A stretch of DNA of 50,274 bases, from contig WGCA01000052.1 in assembly GCA_015494065.1 (NCBI GenBank), positions 1 through 50,274 of the forward strand, in the 5' to 3' direction. This DNA comes from Thermodesulfobacteriaceae bacterium. Its GTDB lineage: Bacteria; Desulfobacterota; Thermodesulfobacteria; Thermodesulfobacteriales; Thermodesulfatatoraceae. The notes under the pieces were generated by a model, which searched no databases, was not told the DNA's origin, and saw only the letters and a program-made list of their open reading frames with translations. Position 1 is the first letter of the stretch, and each line of letters begins with the position of its first letter. Of this stretch, positions 1-41,973 are shown one piece after another. The position numbers were made by a program, and so were the translations under genes.

Positions 1-2
1 AG

Positions 3-77
3 CCTAAAGGTGGGCGTGCCAGACCAAAAATATCCGGTAAGAGTGTCGCCGAACGCGTTCTGGAGGATCAGCGGTGA
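3..77 (+). CDS. C-terminal end of a Phd/YefM-type antitoxin (partial, cut by window edge)
   Basis: The frame is open from the window edge to a TGA at 75-77 and encodes a basic tail reading ...GRARPKISGKSVAERVLEDQR. A G-R-x-R-P-x-I-x-G-K-S-V-A-E-x-V-L-E-D-x-R tail is typical of prevent-host-death (Phd/YefM) antitoxins, where the C-terminus binds and neutralises the toxin. The stop overlaps the GTG start of the next frame by 4 nt, the usual antitoxin-toxin coupling. The DNA-binding N-terminus lies outside the window, so whether it is intact is unknown. The same stretch recurs in degraded form at about 5786-5860. Confidence 0.6.
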   Translation, partial: PKGGRARPKISGKSVAERVLEDQR

Positions 78-265
78 TTCTCTATTTGGAATTAAAGCGA
101 GCCAGTGATTTTGCGAAAGCTTTTGCTCTGAAGGCCTATGATAGTGTTCACTTGGCTGCAGCAGATCTTTTATTAAAAAAGGCAAATGAAGAGGTAATCT
201 TTGGTTGTTTTGATAAAAAACTTAATCAGGCGGCTAAAATTATTGGTTTTCCGTTGTTAAGTTAG
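74..265 (+). pseudogene. PIN-domain (VapC-like) toxin with large internal deletion
   Basis: This 63-codon frame begins MILYLE, the usual first beta strand of a VapC-type PIN ribonuclease. It then jumps straight to a typical PIN C-terminal half (RASDFAKAFALKAYDSVHLAAADLL, then FGCFDKKLNQAA). PIN toxins are normally about 125-140 residues, so roughly 70-80 residues are missing. The first catalytic Asp (the D of the usual DTSAL motif) and the following conserved Glu are gone; only the Asp of YDSVH and the Asp of CFDKK remain. It should therefore be inactive as an Mg-dependent RNase. The junction is in frame. The GTG start overlaps the antitoxin stop by 4 nt, and the helicase gene starts only 9 nt downstream. 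It could be a small functional remnant, but decay is more likely. Confidence 0.65.
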
Positions 266-274
266 GAGTAACCA

Positions 275-3200
275 ATGCCTCTGAATCCGGTTCAGTTTGG
301 TAAGGATGTTATAGATCAGTTTGGGCGTTATTTGCTTACCACCTTTCCGGTAGCCGATCCCAGGCTTCGTCAACAATTCAAGGAAGGGCTTTCCTTTGGG
401 CTCGGTGGAAAAGAGCGGCTGGCTAAGGGACCGTATATATACTTGAGCCGTCCGTTTGTGGAAGGCCCGACGCTAAGAGAACTAATTGCGGCCCCTTCTC
501 TTGATCTGCATCCGGCTCTGGCCGGGATTTTCAATTTCGAAAGGCTTTACAAACACCAGGAGGAAGCCTTACGAGCCGTAAAGGCCGGAAATCACGTCAT
601 TATCGCTACCGGAACCGGTTCCGGTAAAACCGAAGGCTTTCTCCTTCCCATCATTGATGAATGTCTCAAAGCCCGAGATCGGGGGGAGAACAGAGGACCT
701 ATTGCCATCCTGATTTACCCCATGAACGCCCTGGTAAACGACCAGCTTGAACGCCTGAGGAAACTCCTTGCCGGAACGCGTATCACCTTCGGACGCTATA
801 CCGGAGAAACACCCGAAACCGAAGAAAACCTTCCAAGGCTTCCCGAGCCCCGGCCTTATACCAGAGCCGAGCTTTTAAAGGCGCAAAAGCCGGGACAGAT
901 GCTTCCTCTTCCCTGGGAAGAGTGTTTCTCGCGAAAGGAGATTCTTGAGAGAAGACCTCAGATTCTTCTCACCAACTACAGTATGCTTGAATACCTCCTC
1001 CTGCGTCACAAAGATATTGAACTTTTCCTGGAGGCCCCTCTGAAATTTATCGTCTTAGACGAAATCCACACCCACACGGGCTCACGCGGATCGGAGATTG
1101 CCTGTCTCATACGTCGAGTACGAGGCATAGCCGGTAAAACAAGGGATGAAGTTATCTGCATAGGAACCTCTGCCACCCTAAAAAGTGTGTCGGGAATGGG
1201 GAATGGGGAGTGGGAGGCGGAATTAAAACGATTTGCCGCCAATATTTTTGGCGTACCGGAGGACAGGCTCTATCTCGTTCAGGAGAGTTATCAGGAAAGA
1301 AAAGAAAAAGGCTCATTCAAACCTCCGCCACCCGAAGACCCGCAGAGACTTTTTCACGAAATCCTCAAAAGCGTGCGGGAGGTACAGCTGCAGGATGAGG
1401 TGACCGGGGTCTCCCAAGAGACCATAAAACTTGCCGAAAAGCTCGTGAGTCTCAAGGCCCCGGAGGGGGAAGACACCCTCGCCGTTCTTTACAAACTTCT
1501 TTCTCAAAGCGAAATAGTTTCTTTCCTGGAGACGATTACCGAAACTCCACGCCAACTCAAAGAAATTGTAAATGAATTTAAAAAGACTTTTCCCGAAAGG
1601 AAGAGGCTTCCGGACGCAGCCCTTGAGGCCGAAATCCTGAGCTACCTGACTTTAGGGGCTCTGGCACGCCTCGATGATGAGCCTCTGCTAAGACCCAAGC
1701 TCCATTATTTCGTGCAGGGACTTCAAGGTGTCTATCTCGCCTGGCGGGAAGATGGAGTCCCAAACATCTTTTTCGACCAGGCGATAAAGACGGATCGGGT
1801 TCTATTTGAACTTCAAATCTGCCGCTCCTGCGGTCAACACTATGTCAGCGAAACCTATGCTCCTCCCTTTGCCGTAGATCACGAAGAAGAAACATACGGT
1901 GTAAGAATTCTCTCTGGAAATTCAAAAGATGCCGAAAGGCTTTATTTTACCGACGCTATCGTTCCGGGGGTGGAGGAAGAGGTTCCCGGGGAGTCGGGCT
2001 ATCTTTGTCCCTACTGCGGAGCCATCCATGATCGGGATCTCTCGATCTGTCTTAACGAAAAGTGTCGCCGGGAGACCAGGTTAATACCGATTATTTTCTT
2101 CCCCGCCCCTTTACACCATTGTGTTTCCTGTGGGGCGGCCAACCCGGAGCGGAGTCCGGTCATCACTCCGGTAAAATCGGCTGAAGTTTCCGATGTCATG
2201 ATCCTTGCCCAGACCATGCTTTCGGCCATGCCGGAACCCAGCTTAAGAAAACTCATCGTCTTTGCCGACTCCAGACAGGAGGCCGCGTTTCAGGCCGGCT
2301 GGATGGAAAACCGGTCCCGAAGACACCGTTTAAGGCATCTGGTCTATCAAATCCTGAGAAGTGAACCGGAAAGGATTTTTTCTATTGATTCGCTCCATGC
2401 AAAACTGATGGAAAAAGCCGCGGAGGAGGGACTGCTTCCCCGGGTGCGCTGGGGGCAGGAAGAGGAACACAAAAGGCTCCGCTGGTTCATCGTGGAAGAA
2501 CTGGCGTCTTTGACCCGGCGTCAGATGCGCGGAAGCCTGGAGCAGCTGGGACTCGCGGCGGTTCTTTATGACGGTATAGAACCGGAAAATCTGGCCAATC
2601 TTACCCACTGGCTGGAAAAGTTTGAGATAAGCTCCGAAGACCTCGGGAACCTCATCCACGCTCTTCTGGATATTTACCGCATACAAGGTATTTTAAGCGA
2701 TCCTTTCCTTCAGCGGGACTGGTCTTCACAGGATGCCGAGGTGCGAAAGGGGATAGTAAACATTACGGAATATTATTGTCCGCATGTTCTTGTTCTTCAA
2801 AAAGGCGAAAGTAAATATCAAAAAGGATGGCTGGCCCCAAATGGTCGTTCCGCGGCCCAGGTCTTTTTAAGAAAGGTCTTTCCTACGCTGAAATCAGACG
2901 TAAGAGACCAGTTTCTCGAAGAACTCTGGGAATGGCTTATAGAAAAAGATCTTCTGGTTCCGGCGGAAATAAAAAGGAAACGGGCTGGAAGGATTGTCTC
3001 CGTTAGAGGCGGTTCAGGATACCAGATCAATTACCAAAGAATAGGCATTACGCATGGTGAAGGGCGGTATGTTTGCCAGAGCTGTCGGCTGGCTCGTTCA
3101 CGGCCTACGCCCGGCATGGTCTGCCCCGCCTATCGTTGCAAAGGTCGTCTTATTTATCAGCATTGGGATGAAGAACATTACGATGTGGTCCAATATACCA

Positions 3201-5470
3201 AACTCGACTTTGTCCCTCTGATTCCCAGAGAACATTCGGCCCAGGTTCCTCAGGACGATCGCTTGAGGTACGAAAGAGAGTTCAAGGAAAAGGAAAGCAC
3301 CGTTAACTGTCTGGTCGCCACCCCCACCCTGGAATTAGGCGTGGATATTGGACAGCTGGAAATGGTTCTGATGCGAAATGTTCCCCCTTCTCCGGCAAGT
3401 TACGTCCAGCGGAGTGGTCGTGCCGGCCGGAGGCATCGCATAGGAGTGGTTTTTACTTACTGCCGAAACCGCTCCCATGACAAGTACTTTTACCGACATC
3501 CAGAGCAAATGATATCGGGGAGAATTCTGGTACCCGCTTTTTCCATGCAGAATGAACCCTTGATTCGCAAACATATCTTTTCTACGGTTTTAAGTTTTTT
3601 GAGACAGAAAGAAGATACCGCTGAGATAATAAATACCGTTATTCCGTCTTTTATATGGCATTACTTTGGGCAAAAAGAAAACGGAAGGGAGCGTTACCGC
3701 GACGAACCCTTAAAGGTAAAAACTCCGCTAGAAGAGGCTATCAGGAAGTACCGGGACGAAATATTGAACTTTCTGGAAGCCATTTTTACCGACACCTGGC
3801 CTGAGGAAGCGAGAAACCTCGTCTCCCGGGAGAGCCTTGAAAAGATCCTCAAAGATATGCCGGACGAGCTTCAAACTATTGTAGATGATCTCTTTGCTCG
3901 GGTTTCGGCTTATAAAAGGATCCTTAACGAATATGCGGAACTCGAAAGGAAAGGGGAACGCCTTTCTCCAGAAGATAAAAATAAAAGGACCCGATACGAC
4001 AAGGCCCTTGATCGACTGTGGATTGAGGAGCAGGAAAACTACGCCCTCACCTATCTGGCCAAAAGGGGGTTTTTACCCGGATACGCCCTGACCAAAGATA
4101 CCGTTCGGGCCCAATGCGCGGAGCCTTATATCGATCTTCCGCGACCCACCTGTGTGGCCCTCCGGGAATTCGTACCGGCCAATCTTATTTACGCCAACCG
4201 GAATGAATTCCGGGTCGAAAGACTCAATTTTTATGTCTTGCAGGCCCGAGACAGAAACTTCCGAAGCCAGATGGAAACCTTTTATGTTGACGGATCTTTT
4301 ACCAGATTAGCTCAAGGAAGAAGAGAATTCGAAGGTGGAGGGGAGGAAACCATAACCCTTGCCTCGGTAAAGCTTGTGGATGTAGAGCTTGAGCCGCGAG
4401 GGCATATCGGCGATCAACAGGAGTATCCCCGACGGGTTTCATATCAGATACTGGGACTCTTGAGCCCTTATCATGCCGGAGGCTTTAAAGGACGTGTGGG
4501 TAAAATAGATTGTACTTACTATTATCAGGGACAACTAAAACTGGTTAACGCAGGCCCCTACCCGCTTCTTGCCAGGGGAGAATATGGTTTTCCCATCTGT
4601 CCGGTTTGCGGCGAGCTTCGAAGCCCCTTTGCCAGCCGGGCGGAAATTGAAAGCTTCGCGGAGGGCCACCGTAAAAAATGCGGTCGAGAAATCGAACGTC
4701 TATGTTTACACACCGAAGTCCATTCGGATCTTTTAATTATCGGGCCTTTTGAAAATGAGCTGGATTCCTATCATGTAGCCGAAATAATTCGTATTGGAAC
4801 CCGTCTGGTTCTTGATATGGGAGATCAAGAACTCGAAAACGTGAGTATTAAAGATGATGCGGGGGCCACGAAACTGGTGTTTTATGATCCGATTCCAGGA
4901 GGAACCGGATTTCTGCCGCTCATCTTAAAGTTCTGGTCGAACATAGTGCTTAGCGCCAAAGTTGCTATTGAACAATGTGATTGCGAAGAAGCCTGTTATA
5001 ACTGCCTTCTACACTATCGTAACCAGCCTTATCACCACCTTATGAGTCGCTCACGAGCCCTCGCTTTGATGGAGGACCTTTTACCGTGGCAGAGAGAACA
5101 CGATATTCCCCCTCATTATGTTGAGGTTGATATTGATGAAGAGCAACTTGAAAGTCCGGCGGAAGAACGGTTTTTAAAGATTCTGGAAAAACGCGGATTC
5201 CCTACGCCAGTTCCACAATTTGAGGTTGTTTTGAGCGGCACCCAAAAAACGATAGCCGATTTTGCCTATCCGGACCGAAAAATTCTGATCTATATTGACG
5301 GACTCTCCGAAGGCATACACGGAAATCCTGTCCGGCGACAGAAAGACAAACTTTTAAGAGCCAAAGCCCAGGCCAAAGGTTACAGAATCCTGGAAATCCC
5401 TGCCGAAGCTCTTCATGATAAGATCATGCTTGCTGATTACCTGGATATATTAAGCGATTATCTGGCTTAG
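275..5470 (+). CDS. Giant DUF1998-family DEAD/DEAH helicase with C-terminal PD-(D/E)XK-like nuclease domain
   Basis: This 1731-residue protein is probably an ATP-driven nucleic-acid translocase or helicase for genome defence or repair. Visible helicase motifs are a Q-like motif LYKHQ (about 91-95), Walker A ATGTGSGKT (111-119), DEIH box (262-265), GTSAT (297-301), a TPTLELGVDIG block (about 1015-1025) and QRSGRAGR (about 1045-1052). Helicase lobes 1 and 2 are split by about 700 residues carrying Cys pairs (CRSC, CPYC, CVSC) that look like zinc ribbons; CQSC and CPVC follow later. A DUF1998-type Cys cluster (CDCEEACYNCL) sits near residue 1570. The last 105 residues match a Vsr/DUF559-like nuclease: an early E, IADFAYP (D1662), IYIDG (D1675), H1682 and GYRILEIP. 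MrfA-type relatives are about 750 residues, so this is a much enlarged form. ATG follows TAGGAG. It appears solo, with no methylase or phospholipase partner in view. Confidence 0.85.
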   Translation: MPLNPVQFGKDVIDQFGRYLLTTFPVADPRLRQQFKEGLSFGLGGKERLAKGPYIYLSRPFVEGPTLRELIAAPSLDLHPALAGIFNFERLYKHQEEALRAVKAGNHVIIATGTGSGKTEGFLLPIIDECLKARDRGENRGPIAILIYPMNALVNDQLERLRKLLAGTRITFGRYTGETPETEENLPRLPEPRPYTRAELLKAQKPGQMLPLPWEECFSRKEILERRPQILLTNYSMLEYLLLRHKDIELFLEAPLKFIVLDEIHTHTGSRGSEIACLIRRVRGIAGKTRDEVICIGTSATLKSVSGMGNGEWEAELKRFAANIFGVPEDRLYLVQESYQERKEKGSFKPPPPEDPQRLFHEILKSVREVQLQDEVTGVSQETIKLAEKLVSLKAPEGEDTLAVLYKLLSQSEIVSFLETITETPRQLKEIVNEFKKTFPERKRLPDAALEAEILSYLTLGALARLDDEPLLRPKLHYFVQGLQGVYLAWREDGVPNIFFDQAIKTDRVLFELQICRSCGQHYVSETYAPPFAVDHEEETYGVRILSGNSKDAERLYFTDAIVPGVEEEVPGESGYLCPYCGAIHDRDLSICLNEKCRRETRLIPIIFFPAPLHHCVSCGAANPERSPVITPVKSAEVSDVMILAQTMLSAMPEPSLRKLIVFADSRQEAAFQAGWMENRSRRHRLRHLVYQILRSEPERIFSIDSLHAKLMEKAAEEGLLPRVRWGQEEEHKRLRWFIVEELASLTRRQMRGSLEQLGLAAVLYDGIEPENLANLTHWLEKFEISSEDLGNLIHALLDIYRIQGILSDPFLQRDWSSQDAEVRKGIVNITEYYCPHVLVLQKGESKYQKGWLAPNGRSAAQVFLRKVFPTLKSDVRDQFLEELWEWLIEKDLLVPAEIKRKRAGRIVSVRGGSGYQINYQRIGITHGEGRYVCQSCRLARSRPTPGMVCPAYRCKGRLIYQHWDEEHYDVVQYTKLDFVPLIPREHSAQVPQDDRLRYEREFKEKESTVNCLVATPTLELGVDIGQLEMVLMRNVPPSPASYVQRSGRAGRRHRIGVVFTYCRNRSHDKYFYRHPEQMISGRILVPAFSMQNEPLIRKHIFSTVLSFLRQKEDTAEIINTVIPSFIWHYFGQKENGRERYRDEPLKVKTPLEEAIRKYRDEILNFLEAIFTDTWPEEARNLVSRESLEKILKDMPDELQTIVDDLFARVSAYKRILNEYAELERKGERLSPEDKNKRTRYDKALDRLWIEEQENYALTYLAKRGFLPGYALTKDTVRAQCAEPYIDLPRPTCVALREFVPANLIYANRNEFRVERLNFYVLQARDRNFRSQMETFYVDGSFTRLAQGRREFEGGGEETITLASVKLVDVELEPRGHIGDQQEYPRRVSYQILGLLSPYHAGGFKGRVGKIDCTYYYQGQLKLVNAGPYPLLARGEYGFPICPVCGELRSPFASRAEIESFAEGHRKKCGREIERLCLHTEVHSDLLIIGPFENELDSYHVAEIIRIGTRLVLDMGDQELENVSIKDDAGATKLVFYDPIPGGTGFLPLILKFWSNIVLSAKVAIEQCDCEEACYNCLLHYRNQPYHHLMSRSRALALMEDLLPWQREHDIPPHYVEVDIDEEQLESPAEERFLKILEKRGFPTPVPQFEVVLSGTQKTIADFAYPDRKILIYIDGLSEGIHGNPVRRQKDKLLRAKAQAKGYRILEIPAEALHDKIMLADYLDILSDYLA

Positions 5471-5785: not shown

Positions 5786-5897
5786 TGCCCAAAAGTGGGC
5801 GTGTGAGACCAAAAATATCTGGCAAGAGTGTCGCCGAACGTGTTCTGAGGATCGGTGGGCGGCTAAAATTATTAGTTTTTTGCCGTTAGGTCAGGAA
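5786..5897 (+). pseudogene. Second, collapsed copy of the Phd/PIN toxin-antitoxin locus
   Basis: From about 5786 the sequence closely matches window bases 1-77 (antitoxin tail; for example AGACCAAAAATATC and AAGAGTGTCGCCGAACG are identical in both). A 1-nt deletion occurs in the VLED region. Immediately after GGATCGGTG it jumps to GGCGGCTAAAATTATT, which matches bases 231-246 near the 3' end of the PIN frame of the first copy. Nearly all of the toxin has been deleted. It is a dead remnant that forms an imperfect direct repeat bracketing the helicase gene, and its end is about 10 nt from the 3' end of tRNA-Leu. Confidence 0.75.
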
Positions 5898-5907
5898 GAT
5901 AAATAAA

Positions 5908-5994
5908 TGGTGCGGGAGGGGGGACTTGAACCCCCACGGGCTTGCGCCCACTGGATCCTGAATCCAGCGCGTCTACCAATTCCGCCACTCCCGC
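5908..5994 (-). tRNA. tRNA-Leu (anticodon CAG)
   Basis: On the minus strand the acceptor GCGGGAG at 5994-5988 pairs with CTCCCGC at the 3' side. It is followed by discriminator A and an encoded CCA (complement of 5908-5910). The anticodon stem-loop reads CTGGATTCAGGATCCAG, giving CAG. A long variable arm and the TTCAAGTC T-loop fit a class II tRNA-Leu. It is transcribed after tRNA-Arg, with 7 nt between the two genes. Confidence 0.93.
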
Positions 5995-6001
5995 AAGGGT
6001 A

Positions 6002-6078
6002 TGGAGGGCGCGGCGGGATTCGAACCCACGACCTCTGGCTCCGGAGGCCAACGCTCTATCCGACTGAGCTACGCGCCC
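6002..6078 (-). tRNA. tRNA-Arg (anticodon CCG)
   Basis: The 77-nt minus-strand gene has acceptor arms GGGCGCG and CGCGCCC, a CTCCGGA anticodon loop (anticodon CCG), a GGTTCGAAT-type T-loop and an encoded CCA (complement of 6002-6004). The discriminator base reads as T. It lies between leuD and tRNA-Leu(CAG) in the same orientation and may be cotranscribed with either. Confidence 0.92.
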
Positions 6079-37955: not shown

Positions 37956-38545
37956 CTTAAAATCTCCGGCCGTATTCTTTTAAGGTAAGAACAGATAAAG
38001 GCGCAAATTACCCCTTCCAGGGCCGCCACCGGCAGGTGGGCGGCCAGGATTAACCTGGCGGCGGTCCTGAAATTTTCTCCGGTAAAGGAAAGTTCCAAGG
38101 CGACCAGAAGGCCGGCCCCGAAAACCGCCAGGCTTCCGACTAAAAAGCCGGCGACCAAGGCCCCTTTGGTCCCTTTATTTAACAGGGGTCTTGCCAGATA
38201 CGCCGATGCCACCGCGGGAAAGGCCATGTTAAAGGTGTTGACCCCCAGAGTGGTGAGCCCCCCGAATTGGAAAAGGATGGCCTGGAGGAAAAGACAGACC
38301 AGAAAGGAAGGAAAAGCCGCCCAGCGTAATACCAACCCCAAAAGCCCGTTTAAAACCAGGTGTACGGAACTTGGCCCCAAAGGAATATGGACCAGGGAGG
38401 CCACAAAGGCCGCCGCCGTGAGGAGGGCGGCCCGGGGGATGGTCTCCGGTGTCAAATATTTGAGGCCCACCGCGGTCCCTAGGGCGGTAAATATCCCTCC
38501 TAACAAAAGGACAGGGGGATTTAGGACTCCTTCTGAAATGTGCAT
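37952..38545 (-). CDS. nikM: ECF transporter substrate-specific membrane subunit NikM/CbiM
   Basis: The 197-residue S-component binds the metal ion. It starts MHISEGVL: the N-terminal Met-His loops into the binding pocket and supplies ligands in the NikM/CbiM fold. A second His-bearing block is VHIPLGPSSVHLVLNGLLG (about residues 52-70). About six membrane helices are visible. Neighbouring nikK and nikL, rather than cbiN, favour nickel over cobalt, but the metal is inferred. Its ATG follows the nikK stop directly. Confidence 0.92.
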   Translation of the reverse strand: MHISEGVLNPPVLLLGGIFTALGTAVGLKYLTPETIPRAALLTAAAFVASLVHIPLGPSSVHLVLNGLLGLVLRWAAFPSFLVCLFLQAILFQFGGLTTLGVNTFNMAFPAVASAYLARPLLNKGTKGALVAGFLVGSLAVFGAGLLVALELSFTGENFRTAARLILAAHLPVAALEGVICAFICSYLKRIRPEILR

Positions 38546-39355
38546 CTAATCTCCCTTTAAAGGGTAAACCCTAAGCCAAAATACCGCGTCCAGTTCTAAA
38601 GGATATTTCTGGCCCTCTTTGGTTATCGGCGTCCCTTCACTTAACACGGAAAAGCCCCACCAACCAGCCCAGGGGAAACTATAACAAAATTCTCCCGAGG
38701 CGTTAGTCTTGAGGACCTGGGTTTCAAAGACCGGGGCGGGCAGATCAATTTGGCCCTTCTCGTTTAAATATTCTACCTCTACCGTGGCGTATTTGAGTGG
38801 CTGGCCGTCCTTGAGAACCAGGCCGCAGAAGAGGTTCCCTTCCCAGAGACCGTAAGGGCGTACCAGGGGGACTATTTCTACCGGTAGCCCAAGGGCGGCG
38901 TCCCATCCCGTCTCCGCCCCAAAGGCGTTAACCACCACCTTGGTGATCTGCTGGATAAATACCCCTTCTGCGGGTTCAAAATATGGCTGAGGGATGACGT
39001 AAAAGATATAATCTCCCGGACGGCTGAAGGTATATTTTAACTGCCACGCTCTGGCTCTTTGACGGGGGTTAAAATCTGCGCGCCAGGGGGCATAAACGGG
39101 GACATCTATCGGGGTTAGATTTGGGGTGAGTAAAATTTTTTGGCCGTTTAAAAAGACGCCCACTTCTTTGGGCCTGGCAAGGGGCATGGCTGGACCGCCG
39201 GCCATGGGATGGGTGAAGATGATTTTTAGCAGGACGGTCCTTTCCGCCGGATGCGCAACGAGTTCCTTCTCCGGGAGAAACATAAGAAAATGGGCCAGGG
39301 CACCAGAAACCCCGAGTAAAAAGAACATCAGGGTCAAAAGACATAAACGTTTCAT
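38546..39355 (-). CDS. nikK: DUF4198-family periplasmic metal-binding protein NikK
   Basis: The 269-residue protein has a signal peptide ([21 protein letters not shown]) with cleavage leaving His-Phe at the mature N-terminus ([12 protein letters not shown]). A beta-sandwich DUF4198 fold follows, with [24 protein letters not shown] and a second domain containing [19 protein letters not shown] and [23 protein letters not shown]4198 proteins are the NikK component of NikKLMQO systems. The ATG at 39355 is supported by AAAGGAG six bases upstream. It heads the operon, and its 84-bp upstream region is shared with divergent tupA. Confidence 0.87.
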
Positions 39356-39386
39356 GAGGTACTCCTTTAACACCTTTTTCTATTTC

Positions 39387-39415
39387 GTGCTACCAAGCAA
39401 GGACGGGTTTGTCAA
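39387..39415 (-). promoter_or_regulatory. Candidate sigma-70 promoter of the nik operon
   Basis: On the minus strand a perfect TTGACA (39415-39410) is followed after 17 bp by TAGCAC (39392-39387), a weak -10. It lies 31-60 bp upstream of the nikK ATG. The spacing is ideal but the -10 match is poor, so the call is tentative. Confidence 0.35.
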
Positions 39416-39439
39416 ATGGTTTTTTGGGAGGGCAAAGTT

Positions 39440-40288
39440 ATGAAAAGGGCCTCGGTAGCGTTGGTTTTAATTTATAGCCTGTGGCTGGTATTTGTCTTAG
39501 GGGTTGAAGCTGGTGATCGAATCTTGAGGCTGGCTACCACCACCAGCACCGACAACACCGGTCTTTTGGATTACTTGGCCCCCCTTTTTGAGAAGCAAAC
39601 CGGTATCAAGCTGCAATGGGTAGCGGTGGGGACGGGCAAGGCCTTGAAGCTTGGCCAAAATTGTGACGTAGATCTCCTGTTAGTACACGCACCGCCGGCG
39701 GAGAAGGTATTCATAGCCAAGGGTTACGGCCTTGAGCGCCGGCCGATCATGTATAATGATTTTGTGCTGGTGGGTCCCCCGGCTGATCCTGCAAGAATAA
39801 GAGGCCTGCCGGTAAAAGAGGCCTTTCGGCGTCTGGCGGCCAAAGGGGTCAGGTTTGTAAGCCGGGGAGACAATTCCGGCACCCACCAAAAGGAGCTTTC
39901 CCTCTGGCAGGCGGCGGGTTTAAGTCCCGCGCAGCTTGAGCGTAAACCTTGGTACTTACAAACCGGCCAGGGGATGATGATTACCCTTTTGATCGCCGCC
40001 GAAAAAGGGGCTTACACGTTGACTGATAGGGGGACTTTTCTGAAATTTAAGGCCAACCATAAGCTGGCCCAAAGATTAGCCATCCTGGTAGAAGGGGACC
40101 CGGCCCTGCGTAACCAGTACAGCGTCATTCTGGTTAACCCGGCCCGCTGTCCGAACGTGAAGGCAAAGCAGGCCCGCCTATTTATTGAGTGGCTTACTTC
40201 TCCAGAGATTCAACGAAAAATCGGGGAATTTAAATTGTTTGGACAGCCGCTTTTCATTCCCAACGCCCATGAGGAAACTGGCCAATAG
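39440..40288 (+). CDS. tupA: Tungstate ABC transporter substrate-binding protein
   Basis: TupA binds tungstate in the periplasm for import. The ATG at 39440 (after GGGAGGGCAAAGTT) gives 282 residues with a Sec signal (MKRASVALVLIYSLWLVFVLGVEA). Family signature TTTSTDNTGLLDYL (about 33-46) sits at the start of the mature protein, and RGDNSGTHQKELSLW is the second oxyanion-contact block. This TTTS-x-x-x-x-G-L-L motif separates tungstate TupA from ModA. W supply suits tungsten formate dehydrogenase or aldehyde:ferredoxin oxidoreductases, none of which are in the window. Divergent from the nickel operon. Confidence 0.92.
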   Translation: MKRASVALVLIYSLWLVFVLGVEAGDRILRLATTTSTDNTGLLDYLAPLFEKQTGIKLQWVAVGTGKALKLGQNCDVDLLLVHAPPAEKVFIAKGYGLERRPIMYNDFVLVGPPADPARIRGLPVKEAFRRLAAKGVRFVSRGDNSGTHQKELSLWQAAGLSPAQLERKPWYLQTGQGMMITLLIAAEKGAYTLTDRGTFLKFKANHKLAQRLAILVEGDPALRNQYSVILVNPARCPNVKAKQARLFIEWLTSPEIQRKIGEFKLFGQPLFIPNAHEETGQ

Positions 40289-40291
40289 TTT

Positions 40292-40981
40292 ATGGATTAC
40301 CTCTTAGAAGGTTTAATTAAAGCTTTAAGTCTTCTCTTAAACCGGGATCCTGAAACTCTGGCGGCCATCCAGGTAACCCTTAAGGTCACCACTTATTCCA
40401 TGGCGGCCAGTTTGCTTTTGGGAGTCCCCCTGGGGTTTGGCTTAGGGTTCTTTGATTTTCCGGGGCGCAAATTTTTGCGCACCCTGGCCAATACCCTGTT
40501 ATCCCTGCCCACCGTCTTGATTGGTCTCCTGGTATACGCCCTTCTCAGCCAGCAGGGCCCGCTGGGGAGTTTAGGCCTGCTTTTTACCCCGCTGGCCATT
40601 GCCATAGGGCAGACGATTTTGGCCCTGCCTATTGTGGTGGCCCTCACCGCCGCCACCATTGAGAGTTTAGACCAGAAACTGCGTCTGACCTTGCTTTCGC
40701 TGGGGGCTAACCGGCGCCAGCTCCTTCTGTCCATCCTCTGGGAAGCCCGTTACGGCCTCCTCATGGCCGCGGTGACAGCCTACGGCCGCGTCCTTACGGA
40801 AGTGGGTATTTCACTGATGGTGGGGGGTAATATCAAGTGGTACACCAGGACCATCACCACCACCATTGCCCTTGAGACGGCCAAGGGGAATTTTGCCTTA
40901 GGGGTGGCGCTCGGTCTGGTGCTTTTGCTGCTGGCCTTTGGCGTCAATTTCAGTCTCATGTATCTTAGGCGTAAATGGTAA
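40292..40981 (+). CDS. tupB: Tungstate ABC transporter permease
   Basis: The 229-residue inner-membrane permease has five to six membrane helices. The ABC coupling loop for the ATPase is EARYGLLMAAVTAYGRVLTEVG, in the EAA-like position. It starts 4 nt after tupA and overlaps tupC by 7 nt. It is of the ModB/TupB type; the specificity follows from tupA. Confidence 0.92.
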   Translation: MDYLLEGLIKALSLLLNRDPETLAAIQVTLKVTTYSMAASLLLGVPLGFGLGFFDFPGRKFLRTLANTLLSLPTVLIGLLVYALLSQQGPLGSLGLLFTPLAIAIGQTILALPIVVALTAATIESLDQKLRLTLLSLGANRRQLLLSILWEARYGLLMAAVTAYGRVLTEVGISLMVGGNIKWYTRTITTTIALETAKGNFALGVALGLVLLLLAFGVNFSLMYLRRKW

Positions 40982-41973
40982 AGCCTCTTTTTGAAATCAG
41001 GGACCTTTTCCACGCCTATCAAGGAAAAACCGCCCTTTGCGTTGATCATCTGGTCATACCGCAGAGCAAGATCACGGCCCTTGTCGGGCCCAACGGGGCC
41101 GGCAAAAGCACATTTTTGCGCCTTTTAAGTTTTATTGAACAGCCCGTGCGGGGAAAGATCCTTTACCAGGGAAAGACGCTCAGACTCTTTGAGCCGGCTA
41201 CCCGCAAGATAGTCCTTTTGCCCCAGGAGCCTTATCTTTTGCGGCGTTCGGTCTTTGACAATGTAGCCTATGGGCTGAGGATAAGGGGACAAAAAAAGGG
41301 TCTCCGCAAGAGGGTTTATGAGGCCCTTTCGCTGGTAGGCCTGGCCCCTGGAGAGTTTGCCCAAAGACCTTGGTACGCTCTTTCTGGCGGTGAGACACAG
41401 AGAGTGGCCCTGGCCAGCCGTTTGGTTCTGAGACCGGAGGTGTTACTCCTTGACGAACCTACCTCCGGGGTGGACGCCCAGAGCGCCTTTCTCATCCAGA
41501 AAGCCATCGTCGAGGCGCAAAAACTGTGGGGGACCAATCTGATCATCGCTACCCATGACTGGGATTGGGTGAGTGAAATTGCCGATACCTGGTTCTATTT
41601 TGCCCAACAACAGGTTTGGGAAGATATCCCACTTTTTATTCCCGGGCCCTGGCAAAAGGGCCCTTTATTCTGGGTGCGCCCTTTCAGAGACGGGGCCAGT
41701 CTGCAGCTAGAGGCCCCGCGCCAAGATTCTTCGGGGCTGGCCGTTTTTTCCTCTAAGGAAATCAAAATTTATTTACAAAAACCCGATAAAAATTTTAACG
41801 TTTTAGATTTTCAAATCTTTAAGGTTTCGTTAAACAAAAAATTAGGGAAAATCTTTGTTTTTTTATCCCGGGAGGATATATCGCTGGTGCTAGAAAGCGG
41901 GGCCGGTCTTTCCCTTTATCCCGGCCAGAAGGTGTGGCTTTCCTTTCCTGAAAGAGCGCAAAAATGGCTTTAA
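40975..41973 (+). CDS. tupC: Tungstate ABC transporter ATP-binding protein with C-terminal accessory domain
   Basis: The 332-residue ATPase has Walker A GPNGAGKST (about 38-46), Q-loop LLPQEPYLL, signature LSGGETQRVALASRL, Walker B VLLLDEPTSG and switch HDWDW. After about residue 225 comes a 105-residue C-terminal region (VRPFRDGASLQLE... to SLYPGQKVWLSFPERA) that resembles a TOBE/Mop-like regulatory domain, perhaps sensing oxyanions. Its end overlaps hdrC by 10 nt, though hdrC has very different base composition. Confidence 0.92.
   Translation: MVKPLFEIRDLFHAYQGKTALCVDHLVIPQSKITALVGPNGAGKSTFLRLLSFIEQPVRGKILYQGKTLRLFEPATRKIVLLPQEPYLLRRSVFDNVAYGLRIRGQKKGLRKRVYEALSLVGLAPGEFAQRPWYALSGGETQRVALASRLVLRPEVLLLDEPTSGVDAQSAFLIQKAIVEAQKLWGTNLIIATHDWDWVSEIADTWFYFAQQQVWEDIPLFIPGPWQKGPLFWVRPFRDGASLQLEAPRQDSSGLAVFSSKEIKIYLQKPDKNFNVLDFQIFKVSLNKKLGKIFVFLSREDISLVLESGAGLSLYPGQKVWLSFPERAQKWL

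Follow-up and report, generated by a model that had tools for sequence, protein, structure and literature searches.

We conclude with considerable confidence that the window, as we call the whole 50274-bp stretch of DNA analyzed here, carries the gene for the YprA-family helicase-nuclease (ArmC-like) of an ARMADA-kind anti-phage system that comprises several genes. This system would form a separate deep branch, with a DISARM-type DrmD helicase and a chimeric PglX/DrmMI-like adenine methylase as partners. Its layout, with a RapA/BrxHII helicase, a PglX-like methylase, and a YprA protein with a C-terminal Vsr nuclease, corresponds to that of ARMADA (PMC12458937). The window is the entire contig C52 of an assembly (G000) that comprises 2.03 Mb in 67 contigs.

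Results

A large YprA-family helicase with a predicted C-terminal Vsr-like nuclease

The gene is an intact frame of 1731 aa, which begins with ATG and has no internal stops. Pfam recognizes, in this order, a DEAD domain (residues 93-182, E 1e-23), a Helicase_C domain (residues 988-1053, 2e-13), and an MZB domain (1e-9), the last being the MrfA Zn-binding match that corresponds to the DUF1998 cysteine cluster. Between the two SF2 helicase lobes lie ~680 cysteine-rich residues (~303-985), whose two CxxC pairs are conserved in an alignment with homologues, as are the Walker A motif, the DEIH motif, and QRSGRAGR (residues 1045-1052). These results bear out the domain order first read from the sequence alone, namely helicase lobes split by a zinc-ribbon-rich insert of ~700 residues, together with a DUF1998 cluster. 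With both SF2 lobes and DUF1998 (MZB) above the Pfam cut-off, and with a structural match to MrfA (6znp), the protein displays the features of the YprA/MrfA family. In ARMADA, a BrxA-like helical insert would be expected after RecA1 and a MarR-like insert in RecA2; a model of residues 279-998 reached a mean pLDDT of 49.5, and no usable fold match was obtained at such low confidence. The frame is under purifying selection, with a dN/dS of 0.06-0.12 versus three relatives. The features of the gene and its surroundings are collected in Table 1.

Table 1. Features of the YprA gene and its flanks, in window coordinates
Feature	Position	Strand	Basis
PIN-domain toxin gene remnant, internal deletion	41..265	+	tblastn, 95% to PIN residues 92-148 of L003
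YprA-family helicase-nuclease gene	275..5470	+	ORF, Pfam, PADLOC DruE 2e-120, alignment, dN/dS
RecA1 helicase lobe, residues ~91-302: GTGSGK 113-118, DEIH 262-265, SAT 299-301	545..1180	+	Pfam DEAD, invariant columns
Insert between helicase lobes, residues ~303-984, CxxC pairs C516/C519 and C616/C619	1181..3226	+	Alignment
RecA2 helicase lobe, residues ~985-1110: TPTLELGVDIG, QRSGRAGR	3227..3604	+	Pfam Helicase_C, alignment
MZB/DUF1998 zinc module, residues 1504-1578; C1570, C1574, C1577	4784..5008	+	Pfam; MrfA 6znp, Z 11.3
Vsr/EDxHD-like nuclease domain (predicted), residues ~1627-1731; E1630, D1662, D1675, H1682, D1691	5153..5467	+	AF2 model, structural matches, invariant residues
Second Phd/PIN remnant, downstream of helicase	5787..5896	+	Direct repeat of window 2-69 (88%) and 229-267 (82%)
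tRNA-Leu(CAG) 5908-5994 and tRNA-Arg(CCG) 6002-6078, directly downstream of YprA region	5908..6078	-	tRNA calls; tRNAs near system in relatives too

Pfam called no nuclease in the last 110 residues of the protein. We modeled residues 1480-1731 with AF2 from a seven-sequence alignment (mean pLDDT 74), and the predicted nuclease core, a helix-strand-strand-strand-helix-strand arrangement, superposes on I-Bth0305I (3r3p) with a Z of 12.5 and 2.0 Å over 96 of 97 residues. Further matches are to Vsr (1cw0, Z 9.0) and NGO0050 (3hrl, Z 8.7), and structure prediction thus confirms the terminal nuclease that had been proposed, with a Vsr-like fold. The model segment N-terminal to the nuclease matches the DUF1998 region of MrfA (6znp, Z 11.3). 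The five residues listed for this domain in Table 1 are invariant in 7/7 aligned sequences, and their E/D/D/H/D pattern resembles that of EDxHD nucleases, which carry out metal-dependent hydrolysis akin to that of PD-(D/E)XK enzymes (PMC3943268). The motif IYIDG had been taken as a reason to doubt the nuclease, but F or Y is normal at that position in ARMADA I proteins, where the alignment shows IFVDG, VYVDG, and IFCDG. The Vsr-type nuclease characteristic of ARMADA is therefore present in the window protein as a predicted fold with invariant active-site residues, and it is likely to be catalytically active.

YprA is the last gene of an operon in relatives

The contig begins only 274 bp before the YprA start codon, and for this reason the remark that no methylase partner was in view is uninformative, an artefact of the contig edge. 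In relatives, YprA closes an operon whose earlier genes include a DrmD-type RapA helicase and a PglX/DrmMI-like methylase. A Thermodesulfobacteriales MAG (G149) has on one contig the RapA helicase/DrmD, DUF5615, the methylase, two ORFs, a Phd-PIN pair, and YprA, while G171, a genome in 9 contigs, has on one stretch DrmD, a nucleotidyltransferase/HEPN-like pair, the methylase, a 240-aa ORF, Phd-PIN, and YprA. DrmD and the methylase share one contig both in T. autotrophicus, with YprA on a different one, and in a Thermotogaceae MAG (G150), with a related YprA on a second. The whole locus is also on the Synechocystis B12 plasmid, where it is frameshifted and the methylase region contains an IS701-family element. 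Finally, all frames are open on a virus-labelled contig (G189), which encodes DrmD (38520-41738), a 1670-aa methylase with NPPW, and a 1815-aa YprA; viral contigs gave no match to a single-sequence query, and this locus (L128) was recovered with an alignment query. The same contig (L128 14461-21169) also holds a serine recombinase and a phage Gp37/Gp68-like gene, and the system on it may travel on a mobile element.

Most of the YprA homologues that were found on plasmids or in the same phylum adjoin a RapA helicase and a methylase, and the helicase-methylase-YprA order is also that of ARMADA I in archaea, cyanobacteria, and Thermus. The claim that one gene carries everything, as a stand-alone effector, is contradicted by this operon: homologues lie largely within a well-described multi-gene system, an outcome that the sequence-only reading had itself named as counting against it. 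Its broader suggestion of an anti-phage or repair protein survives in part: an anti-phage role is probable, and the stand-alone role has to be given up.

We looked for the partners in the window's own genome. A direct search with T. autotrophicus DrmD identified a DrmD that is 92% identical to it, a full-length open frame 501 bp from the end of contig C62 (G000:C62:11283-14324). The BrxHI model PDLC02503 had been tried as a probe for the partner helicase and was replaced by this DrmD, as it belongs to the wrong family and matches YprA itself. The RapA/BrxHII-like partner is thus present in G000 as in the other records of the clade, and gene order in relatives indicates that C62 and C52 are probably neighbors across a gap, which would place DrmD in the vicinity of the window gene. 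No overlap was found between the ends of C62 and C52, and an 86% copy of the C62 end is present on C57. The methylase gene was not found anywhere in the G000 assembly, which has a contig gap at its expected place. A second RapA helicase in G000, of the ARMADA I type, runs off the end of contig C53 (L142:14404-17082), and no second YprA or methylase was found in this genome to go with it. G171 also bears a separate ARMADA I locus (L119).

In each genome, one end of the system is close to tRNA genes (L062 2946-3160; L048 7736-7812; L049 11492-11579; window 5908-6078). They differ in most genomes (Gln/His, Met, and Leu, with Leu/Arg at the window end), an arrangement that suggests insertion of the system next to tRNA genes.

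The window YprA forms its own clade and its DrmD groups with DISARM

A tree of 33 full-length YprA proteins, with no outgroup root, unites the window protein, the G150 and G189 proteins, and the Synechocystis pieces in one clade (support 100). This clade stands apart from ARMADA I (15 rows), from ARMADA II (4 rows), and from a set of 9 rows that includes Druantia I and III, each of these also with a support of 100; the last set contains the DruE III of E. coli, Marinobacter, and Methylocystis and the DruE I of Nitrosococcus. An earlier second tree agrees on the separation, and both trees, which include 15-23 ARMADA I rows, separate the window clade from them with full support, although the branching order among the four groups is weakly supported. 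The full-length alignment and the trees, taken without an outgroup root, put the window YprA on the ARMADA/Druantia side of the family and not with MrfA, DISARM, or Dpd. ARMADA-type helicases had already been named for comparison in the sequence-only reading. In neither of our two trees does the window YprA fall inside the ARMADA type I clade. The features of ARMADA type II are absent too: the window YprA belongs to a separate clade, and no match to ArmD (a RelE-GajB-like helicase) was found near L128 or in the window contigs.

YprA-family genes were also encountered in two other settings. A Ruminococcus phage genome (PV036439; L103:5992-10668) encodes a YprA-family helicase of ~1560 aa beside a 917-aa protein, outside the ARMADA and window clades. 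A plasmid of Pseudanabaena ABRG5-3 (L105:10294-22222) has two convergent YprA-family genes, the first of which adjoins a RapA helicase, a VapC pair, a methylase, and a UvrD-like gene, while the second groups with a Microchaete protein near Druantia.

As for DrmD, the T. autotrophicus protein scores 1003 bits to the PADLOC DrmD model, against 278-445 for the helicases of ARMADA I and II. The DrmDs of the branch group, with a support of 99-100, with six true DISARM DrmDs, our references being plasmid-encoded proteins flanked by drmA and DUF1998 and mostly by drmC as well. Their identity to DISARM class 1 DrmD is 38-43%, and the AU test rejects a placement with ARMADA I (p-AU 1.5e-5). This tree is to be read as unrooted, as L058, which together with L057 was the intended outgroup, proved to be an ArmA of the ARMADA I type from the window's own genome.

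The two halves of the methylase behave differently. The N-half groups with DISARM (support 99), and its grouping with ARMADA I is rejected (p 7e-6). The C-half groups with ARMADA (support 100), although the AU test leaves a DISARM grouping unrejected (p 0.15), and in T. autotrophicus its mean identity is 38.6% to ARMADA I versus 23% to DISARM. The methylase consequently looks chimeric, with a DISARM-like N-half and, judging from tree support and identities, an ARMADA-like C-half. Depending on where the root lies, the branch would be either a recombinant or the keeper of an ancestral combination that was later changed in DISARM and ARMADA. Whether it amounts to a third ARMADA type, an intermediate or recombinant that joins a DISARM DrmD and a DISARM methylase N-half to a single-polypeptide ARMADA-like helicase-nuclease, is a question on which we are evenly divided.

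It is possible, if somewhat doubtful, that the window protein simply belongs to ARMADA type I, with a separate placement in the trees that only reflects limited sampling. The Vsr nuclease, the helicase-methylase-YprA order, and the ARMADA-like methylase C-half are common to both, and Bell et al., who used ~52,000 sequences, may have counted the window clade under type I. What speaks for a separate branch is the full support for its separation from type I in two trees, and the affinity of DrmD and the methylase N-half to DISARM, with the corresponding ARMADA I groupings rejected.

The methylase is broken in several relatives

Three close relatives keep the methylase, and it is broken in every one of them, each time differently: by a 1-bp deletion in G149 (L048:411-2186 with L003:3018-5882), by a 14-bp deletion in T. 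autotrophicus (L049:2157-6612), and by an in-frame loss of ~300 aa including NPPW in G171 (L118:2458-4554). YprA is frameshifted in two of these genomes, in T. autotrophicus within a poly-G run that goes from 6 to 7 G (L002 near 1660), and in G171 within a heptamer-type minisatellite of ESGMGSG repeats (L117 11215-11293). Repeat inserts of the same kind also occur in some DrmD and methylase copies. The YprA frameshifts are possibly phase variation or, for the G run, a sequencing error. The window YprA is itself flanked by Phd-PIN remnants that form direct repeats (window 1-268 and 5787-5896), the upstream PIN lacking the greater part of its N-terminal half. In L002, L003, and L117, an intact Phd-PIN pair is found at this position, and a PIN gene lies just upstream of YprA in Synechocystis as well. 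Loss of the system seems to be frequent in this group, and some genomes may have it switched off.

The local system could accordingly be a decaying or phase-variable remnant, in which YprA is intact, the methylase is gone, and the system is off. The three different methylase lesions, the two YprA frameshifts, and the truncated PIN toxin genes around the window YprA all point in that direction, but we consider it unlikely, since the window YprA and the C62 DrmD are full-length open frames, the dN/dS of YprA is low, the expected place of the missing methylase falls in a contig gap, and some of the single-base lesions could be sequencing errors. With the methylase broken differently in three relatives, a defence function in G000 is no more than putative.

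Assignments outside ARMADA

The best PADLOC 2023 models for the window protein are those of DruE (Table 1), its best PDB sequence matches are large helicases, probably DruE (9tu7, 1.5e-62), and the helicases of ARMADA and Druantia are sister groups (PMC12458937). It might therefore be the DruE of a Druantia system whose sensor gene (DruH/DruA-type) has been lost to the contig edge, an interpretation that we find highly improbable. An assignment from the PADLOC score was rejected because the library is older than the description of ARMADA and gives similar scores to homologues outside Druantia, the clade protein L052 matching the DruE models equally. DruE III ends in PLD domains and not in a Vsr fold (PMC13192584). 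In our tree, the DruE III and DruE I proteins belong to the other fully supported set, and a tblastn search of the window, L062, L142, L143, and L128 found no DruH. Moreover, the complete loci of G171 and G189 have DrmD and the methylase without DruH or DruA.

The view that the protein is a stand-alone effector or a DNA-repair helicase like MrfA, for which one could invoke the shared helicase-DUF1998 module (6znp) and the absence of a visible partner in the window and of a methylase in G000, is just as hard to sustain and was rejected by gene context in relatives: the window starts immediately upstream of the gene, the other records of the clade carry DrmD and the methylase on one stretch or split over contigs, the gene has a patchy distribution not expected of housekeeping repair functions (of the 59 nearest other genomes, 8 have a match at E 1e-10), and MrfA is a protein of ~750 aa without insert and nuclease.

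Discussion

The recognition of a known multi-gene system replaces the picture of a stand-alone enzyme and settles the question raised by IYIDG. While the ARMADA kind was known already, the DISARM/ARMADA mosaic branch appears to be new, although it may be a clade that Bell et al. included under type I. These authors described ARMADA as a missing link between DISARM and Druantia, from its YprA protein and shared partner families (PMC12458937). The branch provides a concrete mosaic, in which a DISARM-type DrmD and methylase N-half are combined with an ARMADA-type effector and methylase C-half. It bears on the evolution of such anti-phage systems, as the partners in this rare branch look borrowed from a second system. 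If the branch is a third type, DISARM and ARMADA would exchange modules, and the methylase would be a chimera of split origin, its N-half fitting DrmD and its C-half the YprA effector. The mosaic predicts co-evolving surfaces between the members of each of these two pairs, and module exchange is testable by part swaps. In the G189 copy of the locus all three genes are open frames, and proteins from thermophiles lend themselves to structural studies.

Both MrfA and DruE are helicases that work on DNA. DruE loads on, and prefers, 3'-tailed DNA (PMC13192584). In E. coli, ARMADA II gives protection from 13 of 80 phages, does so without abortive infection, and depends on its four genes and on the Walker A motifs (PMC12458937). 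By analogy with MrfA, DruE, and ARMADA II, we propose that the methylase and DrmD would mark or survey DNA, telling self from foreign. The YprA protein would load on single-stranded or 3'-tailed DNA that is invading or replicating, its RecA lobes would translocate beneath the OB/DUF1998 canopy and unwind the DNA, and its Vsr/EDxHD nuclease would cut foreign DNA, which would amount to direct, non-abortive restriction.

Compared with known proteins, the window protein shares its helicase core and DUF1998 module with MrfA, the YprA of Bacillus subtilis, which lacks the large insert and the fused nuclease and is found in a repair context. Residues 1627-1731 have the predicted fold of the Vsr endonuclease and I-Bth0305I (EDxHD), with the same conserved E, D, H, and D, whereas the window nuclease is fused to a helicase. 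Such a helicase-OB-DUF1998-nuclease fusion is the usual architecture in ARMADA and Druantia (Bell et al. 2025, PMC12458937). DruE of Druantia types I and III is likewise a large YprA-family helicase with DUF1998, but it belongs to another clade, its DruH/DruA partner was not found here, and in type III the nuclease is of the PLD and not of the Vsr-like kind.

Among whole systems, DISARM class 1 has a DrmD of the same clade and a methylase to which the N-half found here is similar. In contrast to DISARM, the window branch has helicase, DUF1998, and nuclease in one protein, with a Vsr-like nuclease that replaces PLD. There is no separate DrmC in the branch, the nuclease being fused to the helicase, no match in L128 or the window contigs was to DrmA or DrmB, and neither was seen among the ORFs of the G171 locus. 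ARMADA type II, which has been validated in E. coli, has the same three core proteins in the same order, but it forms a separate clade, and its fourth protein, the RelE-GajB helicase, was not found near L128 or in the window contigs. ARMADA type I and the branch have in common a YprA protein that contains DUF1998 and ends in a Vsr-type nuclease, partners of the RapA/BrxHII helicase and PglX-like methylase families, the helicase-methylase-YprA order, and the methylase C-half. The branch differs from type I in its own fully supported YprA clade, in its DISARM-type helicase and methylase N-half, and in the toxin-antitoxin pair that often directly precedes YprA.
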